Shown here: piece after piece, positions 39,039-44,575 of the stretch
Layout: every line of letters starts with the position of its first letter
Position numbering within the stretch: position 1 is the first letter of the stretch
Source: Streptomyces sp. NBC_01276
GTDB taxonomy: Bacteria > Actinomycetota > Actinomycetes > Streptomycetales > Streptomycetaceae
DNA length: 64,000 nucleotides
Assembly (NCBI RefSeq): GCF_041435355.1
Contig: NZ_CP108442.1
Span: 5,826,501 to 5,890,500, forward strand
Direction of reading: 5' to 3'
Notes under the pieces: model-generated
The model's database searches: none
Told to the model about the DNA's origin: nothing
What the model saw: only the letters and a program-made list of their open reading frames with translations
Made by a program: the position numbers and the translations under genes

Positions 39039-39634
39039 CACTCGATGCCCTTCTGGCCCTTCTGGCCCGCGTCCATCGGGTGCTTGACCTTGGTCATCTC
39101 CGTGACCAGGTCCGCGAACTCCAGCAGCTCCCGAGGTGCGTTGCGGCCCGTGATGACCACGTGCTGGGTGCCGGGACGGTTGCGCAGCACCTCGATGACC
39201 TCGTTCACGTCGATCCAGCCCCAGTGCATCGGGTACGCGAACTCGTCGAGCACGTACAGGCGGTGCGTCTCGGCGGCCAGGTCGCGCTTGACCTGCTCCC
39301 AGCCCTCCTTCGCCGCCTGCTCGTTGTCGAGCTGCGCGTCGCGCTGGACCCAGGACCAGCCCTCGCCCATCTTGTGCCAGACGACCGGGCCGCCCTCGCC
39401 GGAAGCGCCCAGCACCTTCAGCGCGTTCTCCTCGCCGACCTTCCACTTCGCCGACTTGACGAACTGGAACACCCCGATCGACCAGCCCTGGTTCCAGGCG
39501 CGCAGCGCCAGCCCGAAGGCGGCCGTCGACTTGCCCTTGCCCGGGCCGGTGTGGACGAAGACGAGCGGACGGTTGCGGCGCTGACGCGTCGTGAGTCCGT
39601 CGTCGGGAACGACGGACGGCTGTCCCTGCGGCAT
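39035..39634 (-). CDS. cobO: Cob(I)yrinic acid a,c-diamide adenosyltransferase CobO
   Basis: 199 aa. P-loop HTGPGKGKSTAAFG (about 32-45), plus YVLDEFAYPMHWGWID and RPGTQHVVITGRNAP typical of CobO/CobA/BtuR adenosyltransferases. It adds the adenosyl group to reduced corrinoid. The ATG at 39634 overlaps the stop of the upstream chelatase gene (TAATG), and its own stop overlaps cobB. Confidence 0.96.
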   Translation of the reverse strand: MPQGQPSVVPDDGLTTRQRRNRPLVFVHTGPGKGKSTAAFGLALRAWNQGWSIGVFQFVKSAKWKVGEENALKVLGASGEGGPVVWHKMGEGWSWVQRDAQLDNEQAAKEGWEQVKRDLAAETHRLYVLDEFAYPMHWGWIDVNEVIEVLRNRPGTQHVVITGRNAPRELLEFADLVTEMTKVKHPMDAGQKGQKGIEW

Positions 39635-41742
39635 TACGCGGCCCTCCTGGAGGCGCTGTGGGGTGATGCGGTCGATGTCACCGCGGTACGTACGTTCTTC
39701 ACGAGCCCGGCCAGCGAGTCGGCCCGCAGCCCGTCGAGGGTCACGGCCGGCGCCCCCAGATCGGCGGCGAGCGACCCGGCCAGTCCCAGCCGGACCGGCC
39801 CGGACTCGCAGTCCACGACCACCGAGGCGATCCCCTCGGCGGCCAGCAGCCGGGCGCTGCGGCCCGACAGCTCACGCGGCGTGCCGCCCGCCCGGCCGCC
39901 CGGCACACCGGCCGAGGTGGCCCGTCCGTCGGTCACGACCACGAGCAGCGGGCGCCGCGACGGGTCCCGCAGGCGTTCGACGCGCAGCACCTCGTGGGCC
40001 TTGAGCAGCCCGGCGGCGAGCGGGGTGCGCCCGCCGGTCGGCAGCCGTTCCAGACGGACGGCCGCGGCGTCCACCGACGAGGTGGGCGGCAGCGCCAGTT
40101 CGGCCCCGGACCCGCGGAAGGTGATCAGGCCGACCTTGTCGCGGCGCTGGTAGGCGTCGAGGAGCAGCGACATGACGGCGCCCTTGACGGCGCTCATCCG
40201 CTGCCGGGCGGCCATCGACCCGGAGGCGTCGACCACGAACAGCACGAGGTTGCCCTCGCGGCCCTCGCGGGTGGCCTGGCGCAGGTCGTCCTTGCGGATG
40301 ACCAGCCCGCGCCCGTCGCGCCCGCGTGCCTTCTGGTGCGGGGCGGCGGCGTGGACGGTGGCCGCCAGGTGCAGCTTCGTCAGGTGGCCGCGGGGGCGCT
40401 GGGAGCCGGTGGTGCGGCCGTGGGCGGTGCGGGCGCGGGACCGCCGCCCCGCGGCTCCCTCGCCGAGACCGGGCACGCTGAGCACCTTGGTGCGGAACGG
40501 CTCGGCGGCCCCCACGGGGGCCTGCTCGGCGGCGCCGGAGCCCTGGGGGGAGGGCTGCGGGGCGTCCTCGCGGGCGGTGTCGGGGGCGTCCGGGGCGGCC
40601 TCGGGGGAGTCCTGGGCGGGGGGCCCGTCGTGCTGCGGGGGGACCCCGCCGCCGTCCCCGTCCGGGCCGCCGTCGCCGTCGCCGTCCGGGCCCTGGGGCT
40701 CCGGGTCGGGCTCGGGCTCCGGCTCCTCGTCCGGGAAGCCGTCCAGGATCCGGTCCAGCATCTCCTCGTCCAGACCCGGCGCGTCGAACGGATTGCGGCG
40801 CCTGCGGTGGGGGAGCGCCAGCAGCGCGGCCTGCCGCACGTCTTCCTTCCGCACCTCGGTCCGCCCGGCCCAGGCGGCCAGCGCGGTCGCGGTCCGGGCC
40901 ATCACGATGTCGGCCCGCATGCCGTCGACCTCGAAGCCGGCGCAGGTGGCGGCGATCTGGAGCAGCGAGGTGTCACCCAGCACCACCTGCGGCAGCAGGG
41001 CCCGGGCGGCCACGACCCGGGCGCGCACCTCCCGCTCGTCCACGGACCAGCGGGCCGCGAAGCCCGCGGGATCGTCCTCGTAGGCCAGCCGGCGGCGGAC
41101 CACCTCGACGCGCTGGGCGGGCTCGCGGGAGGCCGCCACCTCGACGGTCAGCCCGAACCGGTCCAGCAACTGCGGCCGCAGTTCGCCCTCCTCGGGGTTC
41201 ATCGTGCCGACGAGGAGGAAGCGGGCCGCGTGGCGCACCGAGACGCCCTCGCGCTCCACGTAGGAGGCGCCCATCGCCGCGGCGTCGAGCAGGACGTCCA
41301 CCAAGTGGTCGTGGAGCAGGTTCACTTCGTCGACGTACAGGATCCCGCGGTGCGCGTCGGCCAGCAGCCCCGGCTCGAAGGCCTTCACCCCCTCGGCCAG
41401 CGCCCGCTCGATGTCGAGGGCGCCGACGAGGCGGTCCTCGGAGGCGCCGACGGGCAGCTCCACCATGCGGGCGGGACGGGCCGTGCCCGCGCCCGCCTCG
41501 TGCGGCCCGTCCGGGCAGCCCGGGTCCGGAGCGGCGGGCGCGCACGAGAAGCGGCAGCCGGGAACGACGTCCACCTGCGGCAGCAGCGCGGACAGAGCGC
41601 GGACGGCGGTGGACTTGGCGGTCCCCTTCTCGCCGCGCACGAGCACGCCGCCGACCGCCGGGCTCACGGCGTTGAGGAGGAGGGCCAGCCGCAGGTCGTC
41701 CTGCCCGACCACGGCCGAGAAGGGGAAATGGGGACTGCTCAT
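39634..41742 (-). CDS. Fused BchI/BchD-type (ChlI-ChlD) cobaltochelatase AAA subunit
   Basis: 702 aa from ATG at 41742 (MSSPHFPFSAVVGQDDLRLA). The AAA+ part has Walker A GEKGTAKST (about 35) and YVDEVNLLHDHLVDVLLD (about 133). An acidic and Pro-rich linker lies at about 345-420. The VWA domain ends the protein with the metal site VVDASGSMAARQ (about 520). Such fusions serve as the CobS/CobT equivalents that power cobalt insertion with CobN. cobN itself is not in this window. Start choice: the longer in-frame frame would read through the CRISPR-like repeat. Confidence 0.9.
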   Translation of the reverse strand: MSSPHFPFSAVVGQDDLRLALLLNAVSPAVGGVLVRGEKGTAKSTAVRALSALLPQVDVVPGCRFSCAPAAPDPGCPDGPHEAGAGTARPARMVELPVGASEDRLVGALDIERALAEGVKAFEPGLLADAHRGILYVDEVNLLHDHLVDVLLDAAAMGASYVEREGVSVRHAARFLLVGTMNPEEGELRPQLLDRFGLTVEVAASREPAQRVEVVRRRLAYEDDPAGFAARWSVDEREVRARVVAARALLPQVVLGDTSLLQIAATCAGFEVDGMRADIVMARTATALAAWAGRTEVRKEDVRQAALLALPHRRRRNPFDAPGLDEEMLDRILDGFPDEEPEPEPDPEPQGPDGDGDGGPDGDGGGVPPQHDGPPAQDSPEAAPDAPDTAREDAPQPSPQGSGAAEQAPVGAAEPFRTKVLSVPGLGEGAAGRRSRARTAHGRTTGSQRPRGHLTKLHLAATVHAAAPHQKARGRDGRGLVIRKDDLRQATREGREGNLVLFVVDASGSMAARQRMSAVKGAVMSLLLDAYQRRDKVGLITFRGSGAELALPPTSSVDAAAVRLERLPTGGRTPLAAGLLKAHEVLRVERLRDPSRRPLLVVVTDGRATSAGVPGGRAGGTPRELSGRSARLLAAEGIASVVVDCESGPVRLGLAGSLAADLGAPAVTLDGLRADSLAGLVKNVRTAVTSTASPHSASRRAA

Positions 41743-41815
41743 GAGACGGTCGCTCCTTCGAGTGGCTCGTGCCGACGCACGGGCCGACGTGCTCCGATCG
41801 TGCAGGGGTCGCCGA

Positions 41816-41896
41816 GTGCTCCCCGCCCGCGCGGGGATGGTCCCGGGAGGGTCGTGCCCATGCGGTGCGCGCTCCTGGTGGTCCCCGCGCACGCGG
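41816..41896 (+). CRISPR. Type I-E CRISPR-like repeat plus a degenerate copy
   Basis: The repeat at 41816-41844 (29 bp) begins GTGCTCCCCGC and ends GCGGGGATGGTCCC. It shares the TCCCCGC...GCGGGGAT hairpin core and the near-terminal CC of the E. coli-type I-E repeat. A second, degenerate copy (GTGGTCCCCGCGCACGCGG, 41878-41896) starts 62 bp later, leaving a 33-bp spacer-like stretch. This fits a collapsed or terminal piece of an array. No cas genes lie in the window. It sits in the 172-bp gap between bchID and cobQ, where cobN is normally found. Confidence 0.55.
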
Positions 41897-41914
41897 CCCG
41901 CGGGGCCCGCCCCC

Positions 41915-43435
41915 TCACGGGGCGCCCGGGGGGAGGAACGGGAGGCCCGCGGGGGCGCCCCCCTCGATCAGCCGCAGCAGCGCGTCGGTGTCGGCGTGCT
42001 CGGCGATCAGGTCGCCCAGCAGGTCGAGCTGCTCCTCGCGCAGCGCGCCGAAGGAGGTGTCCGGGGCCGGGACGAACCGGCGCCCCGCGGCCGCGGCCAC
42101 CTCCCGCAGGAACGCCCGGCGGAATCCGTCGGACTCCAGCGAGCCGTGCCAGTGGGTGCCCCAGACGGCGCCGACCCGGCAGCCGTCGAGGAAGGGGGTG
42201 CCGCCGAGGACCTCGGCCACGCCGTGGTGGATCTCGTAGCCCTCCACCGGCTCGCCGAGGGCCGTGCCCACCGGCCGGGCCAGGGTCTTCTCCCGTTCGA
42301 AGCGGACCCGGACCGGCAGCAGCCCGAGGCCCGCCACCGCGCCGGCCTTCGACTCGACCTCGTCCTCGATGTGCTCGCCGAGCAACTGGAAGCCGCCGCA
42401 GACGCCCAGCACCGGGCGGCCCTCGGCGGCCCGCCGGGCGAGGGCGTCCGCGAGCCCGCGCTCGCGCAGCCACTCCAGCGCCTTCACGGTGCCGCGCGTA
42501 CCCGGGACGACGACCAGGTCCGCGTCGGCCAGTTCCTCGGCCCGGTCCACGAACCGCACCACCACGCCCGGCTCGGCCGCGAGCGCGTCGACGTCGGTGA
42601 AGTTCGACATCAGCGGCACCGCGCACACCGCGACCCGCAGCACGTCCTCGCCGACCGGCGGGGCCACGACCGATTCGCGCACCGCGCCGCGCAGGGAGAC
42701 CCGCAGGCCGTCCTCCTCGTCGATGCCCAGCCCGTGCCGGAACGGCAGCACCCCGTACGTCGCCCGTCCCGTCAGCCCGCGCAGCATCTCCATGCCGGGC
42801 TCCAGGAGGGTGACGTCGCCCCGGAACTTGTTGACCATGTAGCCCGCGATCAGCGACTGGTCCTCGGGGGAGAGCAGCGCCGTCGTCCCGAAGAAGGAGG
42901 CGAAGACCCCGCCCCGGTCGATGTCGCCGACCACGACCACCGGGAAGCGCGCGGCCCGCGCGATGCCCATGTTCACGATGTCGGTCCGGCGCAGGTTGAT
43001 CTCGGCCGGACTGCCCGCCCCCTCGCAGATCACGGCGTCATACGTGCCCCGCAGCTGCTCCAGGCAGTCCGTGACGATGCCGAGCAGCTGTTCCTGCCGC
43101 CCTCCGTGGTAGCCCCGCGCGCTCATCTCGCCCACGGGCTTGCCCAGCAGCACCACCTGGCTGCTGCGGTCGCTGCCGGGCTTGAGCAGGACGGGGTTCA
43201 TCAGGGCCGTCGGCTCCACCCGCGCGGCCTGCGCCTGCATGGCCTGGGCGCGGCCGATCTCGGCGCCCTCCCGGGTCACGAAGGAGTTGAGGGACATGTT
43301 CTGGGCCTTGAACGGGGCCACCTTCACGCCCTGCCGGGCGAGCCAGCGGCAGATGCCCGCCGTGACCACGCTCTTGCCCGCGTCCGAGGTCGTACCGGCG
43401 ACCAGCAGTCCGCCGCCGCGCCGCGCGCCGCTCAT
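41915..43435 (-). CDS. cobQ: Cobyric acid synthase CobQ
   Basis: 506 aa. Amidates the b, d, e and g side chains of adenosylcobyrinic acid a,c-diamide using glutamine and [21 protein letters not shown] is the N-terminal nucleotide-binding region, with [20 protein letters not shown] after it. The glutaminase domain has [18 protein letters not shown] (about 345-362) with the nucleophile cysteine and EIHHGVAEV. The ATG at 43435 overlaps the end of cbiB. It is followed in the transcript by the 172-bp gap holding the CRISPR-like repeat. Confidence 0.96.
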
Positions 43436-44463: not shown

Positions 44464-44575
44464 CCGGCGGCGAGAGTTCCTGGCTCCCGGGGTCCCGCAC
44501 GCGCCGCGTGGGGCCCCCGGTGACAGTGGCGGGACCGCGCCGGATTCGCACCGGACTTCCTCTCCATGCCGCCGT
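44464..44575 (-). promoter_or_regulatory. Cobalamin (AdoCbl) riboswitch
   Basis: On the minus strand the leader reads AGGAAGTCCGGTGCGAATCC, then GGCGCGGTCCCGCCACTGTC, which contains the B12 box and the neighbouring conserved core. GAGCCAGGAACTC lies at the 3' side. The outer stem can form between 44466-44471 and 44568-44573 (GGCGGC/GCCGCC). The 48 bases before cbiB hold a CAGGG/CCCTG hairpin that may be part of the expression platform. It should turn off the cbiB-cobQ-bchID-cobO-cobB operon when cobalamin is plentiful. Confidence 0.92.

Follow-up and report, generated by a model that had tools for sequence, protein, structure and literature searches.

Analysis of a 64,000-nucleotide stretch of Streptomyces sp. 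NBC_01276 (the window) and of the corresponding loci in related genomes points to a CRISPR unit that carries a guide against other strains' versions of the gene beside it. In the window, two type I-E repeats enclose one spacer at a place where the initial annotation reported a repeat scar. That this is a stray scar is contradicted by intact two-repeat, one-spacer I-E units found upstream of cobaltochelatase in 13 other genomes of the genus (7 named Streptomyces), at the same place and with spacers resembling the adjacent cobalamin genes. We consider it probable that a guide and an immune allele are linked at this locus and that the host's Cascade would attack DNA bearing foreign alleles. What can be read directly from sequence is the position and geometry of the unit, the apparent source of its spacer, the mismatch or PAM change in the resident gene and a six-base pattern in the guides.

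A decayed one-spacer unit in a cobalamin operon

The features concerned are:

41816-41844, plus strand: repeat 1, an intact 29-nt type I-E repeat by direct reading, GTGCTCCCCGCCCGCGCGGGGATGGTCCC
41821-41836, plus strand: stem of repeat 1
41837-41844, plus strand: 8-nt handle of repeat 1
41845-41877, plus strand: single spacer, 33 nt, apparently a degraded copy of the cobaltochelatase start of related strains (site F)
41878-41906, plus strand: repeat 2, decayed, with 19 nt kept (41878-41896) and the 3' arm of the stem gone
39634-41742, minus strand: putative cobaltochelatase, fused ChlI/ChlD-type subunit (TIGR02442, 841.7 bits; cut-off 779.45)
41915-43435, minus strand: cobQ, cobyric acid synthase (NF001989, 585.7 bits)
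41720-41757, plus strand: resident counterpart of site F, at the cobaltochelatase start, with 15 of 27 read positions matching

The unit lies between the cobaltochelatase start and the cobQ end, on the strand opposite to that of the operon, which is carried in an 8.2-Mb contig. The initial annotation was right about the 29-nt repeat, the 33-nt spacer and a second copy that begins at 41878 and decays after 19 nt. The repeat has the 6-bp stem expected of a type I-E array, and the spacing of 62 is one base above the 61 (29 + 32) of the relatives. Comparison with other repeats in the 9.37-Mb genome, also proposed there, gave repeat 1 as the single match at up to 3 mismatches, against 0 in a reversed control. 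A looser repeat pattern matched 19 places in the genome versus 5 in the control, and the two next-best places had no second repeat within the 300 bases examined.

Two repeat-like hairpins elsewhere in the genome are each one mismatch from the I-E pattern and have no second repeat in 300 bases. One (L003 1501-1525; G000:C1:4382487-4382511) precedes a small basic open reading frame that by eye is ribosomal protein bS22-like, and the other (L004 1501-1525; G000:C1:5612260-5612284) closely precedes a reading frame that by eye is DivIVA-like. A search of window positions 41700-42000 against Rfam at E-values up to 1 matched no family. Farther along, at 44475-44561 on the minus strand, a cobalamin riboswitch (RF00174, 35.7 bits) stands upstream of the minus-strand cobalamin genes.

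Recurrence of the unit in related genomes

The initial annotation proposed that its reading would fall if relatives showed no repeat in the same gap. The gap was found to hold the same unit in some relatives, although most are without it. A first survey found an intact unit at this place in L027 and L037, and scanning named contigs for the pattern gave nine Streptomyces (L056, L059, L060, L064, L066, L069, L070, L073 and L076), two of which, L059 and L070, have degraded units; these nine were accepted from 23 matches, 4 further Streptomyces being rejected on inspection and 10 matches in other bacteria left aside. A pattern search of 392 genomes contributed G089 (L051) and the degraded G339 (L053), while a search with a chelatase probe contributed L174, L177 and L187, whose other neighbor is cobN-like, and a single repeat in L172. 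A homologous repeat 1 is present in all 13 intact units, and repeat 2 is intact in most unit-bearing relatives. Single stems in the same gap of L113 (G031) and L094 (G059) are probably further remnants.

A scan of 150 oriented loci that permitted spacings of 59-63 returned 12 two-stem units, every one with a spacing of exactly 61, to which L069 was added to reach 13; in the degraded L059 unit the spacing is shorter than 61. Across the 12 units, stem 1 lies 85-92 nt from a fixed chelatase codon, with either cobQ or cobN as the other neighbor (cobN replaces cobQ in three unit-bearing relatives), and no third stem occurs in the first 320 bases, leaving one spacer per unit. The true I-E repeat, the 61-bp period and the decayed trailing repeat of the window would all suit an ordinary remnant of a longer phage-directed array. 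Such an origin is nevertheless very improbable, as each of the 12 units has a single spacer, no third stem and no spacer of other origin, and a search for a plasmid or phage source of the chelatase gene found no copy at 80% or higher protein identity in plasmid and phage collections. Of the two possibilities raised in the initial annotation, an orphan mini-array with a decayed end stands, and a chance remnant of an ordinary array finds no support.

The unit is rare, and most relatives are without it. It was present in 5 of 134 distinct genomes whose loci were fetched for other reasons, and a covariance model run on 199 genomes of the genus placed three units on top (103, 94 and 93 bits), everything else among the matches listed scoring 66 or less. 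The window copy scored 56.9 bits, among matches taken as ordinary arrays (not individually inspected), and tandem matches of other genomes of the genus, likewise taken for ordinary I-E arrays, aligned with window positions 41815-41896. Within the stems, 97.4% of cells pair and three pairs have changed on both sides, values equalled by 3 of 500 and 5 of 500 shuffles. Pair types were no more numerous than in shuffles (210 of 500), and one slid control had an equal covariation score. On a chelatase tree the units are scattered, requiring 14 changes for 17 labelled tips of 149, and shuffled labels gave a minimum of 14 and a mean of 16.3 changes (some genomes are present twice).

The last base of repeat 1, inspected by eye in 14 units with the window included, is G in 4 of 4 spacers from AAG sites and C or T in 7 of 10 spacers from AAC sites, as if it were the third PAM base brought in at integration.

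Spacers resemble the flanking gene

All 13 intact-unit spacers resemble a flanking gene, the cobaltochelatase or, in two units, cobN. Each resembles an in-frame stretch directly after an Asn or Lys codon, and the stretches fall at five sites:

Site A, chelatase, preceding residue N: AVSPAVGGVLV
Site B, chelatase, preceding residue K: GTAKSTAVRAL
Site C, chelatase, preceding residue N: LLHDHLVDLLL
Site D, chelatase, preceding residue N: PFDAPGLDEDK
Site E, CobN, preceding residue K: KSNPWALRGIT

Counting the degraded units brings the total to seven, with B2 and the window's site F. Controls with shuffled spacers were run for L027, L037, L187 and the degraded L059 and L070, and mean scores were 39.8 versus 18.8 for L027, 31.9 versus 22.8 for L037 and 47.0 versus 23.7 for L187. 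The degraded L059 spacer corresponds to B2, four codons into B, a position given by 90 of 133 loci, and the degraded L070 spacer is a decayed A, given by 71 of 133 loci. Plain identity scoring was discarded because it drowned in GC-rich noise.

A PAM-anchored scan of both strands assigned the window spacer, 33 nt in length versus 32 nt in the relatives, to site F, which lies across the chelatase start on the opposite strand. Across eleven loci in nine genomes, site F agrees with the spacer at 21 of the 27 positions read by Cascade and at 24-25 of all 32, the match always follows AAC or AAG, and the score was reached by 1 of 400 dinucleotide shuffles. The resident site F of the window, in its best register, has GGG where the relatives show AAC or AAG. 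A 3-bp shift at the resident site is also found in some unit-free genomes (L159), so it need not have originated as an escape. An assignment of the window spacer to the Walker-A site B was rejected at 24.0 versus 24.7 for shuffled spacers, in a panel that started after the start codon.

Scans along the chelatase gene addressed its coding more broadly. A deficit scan had a mixed outcome, and a scan of codon rarity placed the target site among the 28 highest-ranked windows in 8 of 11 genomes and at ranks 40, 84 and 161 in the others; rank 40 is that of the window genome, which was scored at the wrong site. The chelatases of L064 and L027 are unusually coded at sites A, B and B2 while their present spacers resemble C, and this odd coding looks like the mark of earlier spacers.

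Targets elsewhere were also sought for two spacer cores in their four carrier genomes. The C core common to L060 and L073 has no second site with fewer than 3 mismatches in either genome; at 3 mismatches there are 5 places versus 2 in a reversed control (array excluded), one of which is the same site in both genomes and lacks an AA PAM. In its carrier genomes the E core matches the resident cobN only, with 2-3 mismatches and a changed PAM.

Mismatches and PAM changes in most resident alleles

The spacers were compared with panels of one allele per genome, taken from genomes that have neither a unit nor a remnant. Because residue patterns served to select the alleles, these panels lack divergent ones; for sites A-D the selecting pattern included the preceding residue, and D was recounted free of that constraint. 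L053 and L059 entered some tests only, and the resident site of L187 one test only. Over 13 spacers (degraded L070 in, L187 left out), the resident gene had a mean percentile of 0.135, meaning that other alleles match the spacers better; the value was 0.147 without L070 and 0.180 when each related pair was represented by one member. Counted over Cascade-read positions, the closest non-array alleles have 0-4 mismatches to the intact spacers and ten residents have 7-10. The residents of L064 and L056 are not poor by rank (0.342 and 0.699), and even the nearest allele has at least 4 read mismatches to those spacers.

An allele with zero read mismatches was found for three spacers only, those of L174, L177 and L187, and the resident protospacers of these three are themselves not specially recoded. 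Their PAM codons are CGG in L174 and L177 (AAG in 63 of 67 others) and GCA in L187 (AAC or AAT in 115 of 120 others). L051 has AAA where 144 of 145 others have AAG, and L073 has AAT, which is common to 19 of 149 alleles. In 12 of 13 scored cases, the PAM codon of the unit's own site has changed or the seed has one or more mismatches. The exception is L069, whose own gene still offers AAG and matches the seed throughout, so that only 8 other mismatches would protect it.

These values bear on the proposal that the crRNA brings Cascade to the cell's own cobalamin genes and damps their expression, like other crRNA-like regulators. The array does lie within the operon and resemble its genes; moreover, in the available part of an E. 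coli study, AAG and a short seed are enough for binding (PMC5904413), and L069 retains both. A regulator of this kind should keep its PAM and seed, and the other 12 scored cases do not, with the caveat that almost no allele matches the seed of L056 or L064 perfectly. We therefore regard regulation in cis as improbable.

Effector genes and PAM

With Cas7e as the marker of an I-E effector, its profile (TIGR01869) found no match in the whole window genome, which extends the earlier remark that the window lacks cas genes. Cas7e is present in 9 of the 13 intact-unit genomes versus 131 of 392 genomes of the genus (p = 0.014), the intact units lacking a match being L027, L064, L177 and L187. It is found in none of the four genomes with degraded two-repeat units (window, L053, L059 and L070). 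Among single-stem remnants it occurs in G249 and G031 and is missing from G059; with two of three positive, decay does not simply track loss of Cas. With its second repeat broken and Cas7e missing from the genome, the window copy reads as a fossil, dead or dying.

The PAM measured in S. avermitilis is AAG, according to the part of the report available (PMC4762764). The AAC found before sites A, C, D and mostly F does not fit the PAM given there.

A six-base pattern in the guides

The accessible portion of the source (PMC5904413) describes E. coli Cascade as leaving each sixth base of the crRNA flipped out and without a pairing partner. Since the first base of each spacer also opens a codon, third codon bases alternate between read (3, 9, 15, 21, 27) and unread (6, 12, 18, 24, 30), and this alternation allows codon wobble to be separated from reading by Cascade. 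Spacer bases found in fewer than 5% of alleles occupy 31 of 65 unread versus 6 of 65 read third positions (p = 1.5e-6), with counts of 3, 3, 6, 7, 3 and 31 over phases 1-6. With one of each related pair the figures are 22 of 50 unread versus 4 of 50 read (p = 6.5e-5). The rare bases of 12 resident targets show a mirror pattern, with counts of 5, 2, 13, 0, 2 and 3 over the phases (13 read versus 3 unread, p = 0.02); for the nine less related residents the 9 read versus 3 unread is not significant (p = 0.15). The contrast between guides and residents gives p = 1.1e-5, or 6.4e-4 with related ones dropped. Ordinary alleles treated as pseudo-spacers (n = 651, some genomes twice) show no difference, at 0.080 per allele for phase 3 and 0.086 for phase 6.

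No single result is stronger, in our view, than the guide pattern, and it is a post hoc one, noticed after the first comparisons. Its apparent meaning is that the guides are held to what Cascade reads in other alleles. The resident genes, in turn, seem to have changed at positions that Cascade reads, the mirror pattern being the weaker part.

The guide pattern also weighs on a scar of autoimmunity, in which Cas1-Cas2 repeatedly inserted self DNA next to its source, the target mutated, the cell survived and the array was left idle. This account would lead one to expect residents that are less like the spacers than other alleles are, and also the decayed units of the window, L053, L059 and L070, whose genomes lack Cas7e. 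A useless spacer should nevertheless drift evenly, and the changes cluster at positions that Cascade does not read. Moreover, the spacers of L060 and L073 share 22 identical bases despite chelatase fragments that are 85% identical, and by eye the sequences before the two arrays are unlike. Accidental spacers normally join existing arrays, which counts further against the account, and we consider it unlikely.

A final alternative is an RNA element of the operon unrelated to Cas, consisting of hairpins in an untranslated region or of long-range pairing between the inverted gene copy and the mRNA. The element does stand before the chelatase start on the transcribed strand, and its stems are kept. 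The 29 + 32 geometry, the AAG or AAC before the sources and the six-base pattern instead point to Cascade, and the folding of the window copy is not clearly superior to that of shuffles (z -1.12, plus strand only). Of all the explanations weighed, we find this one the least credible.

Model of a guide linked to an immune allele

We hypothesize, in keeping with the reading of a guide linked to an immune allele, that the one-spacer mini-array beside the cobaltochelatase gene would be transcribed and processed into one crRNA, and that this crRNA would be used by the host's own Cascade-Cas3, encoded elsewhere. The spacer would copy a PAM-flanked stretch of the flanking cobalamin gene in the version of other strains, and the resident gene would have escaped through recoded read positions or an altered PAM codon. 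Resident DNA would be spared, and an incoming foreign allele, arriving for example on chromosomal fragments through conjugation, would be attacked and cut. A unit that entered a Cas-positive recipient would attack the recipient's own allele until its replacement, and the benefit would be allele exclusion or drive. Guide and immunity would have to be inherited together, which would account for targets lying next door.

A more specific version of this model, which we hold as possible but doubtful, is a natural chromosomal cleave-and-rescue element. Guide and recoded immune allele of a B12 gene would spread or defend themselves by borrowing Cascade-Cas3 to destroy non-immune Streptomyces alleles during conjugation, and serial changes of target site would leave layers of recoding.

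If the model is true, bacterial chromosomes carry CRISPR guides against another allele of an adjacent gene, which would provide a mechanism for allele exclusion and recombination barriers and would be nature's equivalent of a synthetic gene drive. With the sixth-base pattern, computation alone could test whether a guide has been read by a type I effector over evolution.

Comparison with known systems

No description of such units was found in the open-access literature, a scope that excludes most subscription papers. Engineered cleave-and-rescue elements link a guide to a recoded copy of the target gene. The units described here likewise appear to join a guide to a resistant version of its target, but they are natural, Cas would act in trans and the killing is a prediction. 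CreA and other crRNA-like RNAs that serve as antitoxins or regulators retain their seed match and act at a site resident in the genome; the present units resemble them as CRISPR-derived single guides that partially match their own genome, whereas the resident matches here are mostly broken. In haloarchaea, the spacers of interspecies mating described by Turgeman-Grott in 2019 reportedly match chromosomal and housekeeping genes of related species, as the spacers do here. Those spacers are said to belong to ordinary arrays of several spacers with no linkage to the gene they target, in contrast to the linked single spacer of these units.

The S. avermitilis I-E array, as far as the available portion of its description goes, is similar in type, in its 32-bp spacers and in an AAG PAM that is shared at some sites, and it differs from the present units, which have one spacer resembling the flanking gene and no adjacent cas genes (PMC4762764). 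The closest described case is that of the mini-CRISPR arrays of the Sulfolobales viruses SPV1 and SPV2, which in the accessible part of the report serve superinfection exclusion and are located on virus genomes (PMC6858448). Both systems, by that partial account, have one or two spacers without cas genes (in the window, one spacer flanked by cob genes) and occupy the same place with differing spacers. In both, the spacers match near-array sequence of relatives and the carrier's own counterpart is mutated so that self would be spared, with L056, L064 and L069 as exceptions here. In contrast to the arrays of SPV1 and SPV2, as far as these are described there, the present units are not virus-borne and lie on a bacterial chromosome beside a housekeeping operon, with one spacer, a type I-E repeat and a six-base guide pattern. 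The logic of the virus mini-CRISPR is here moved to the housekeeping operon of a bacterial chromosome.
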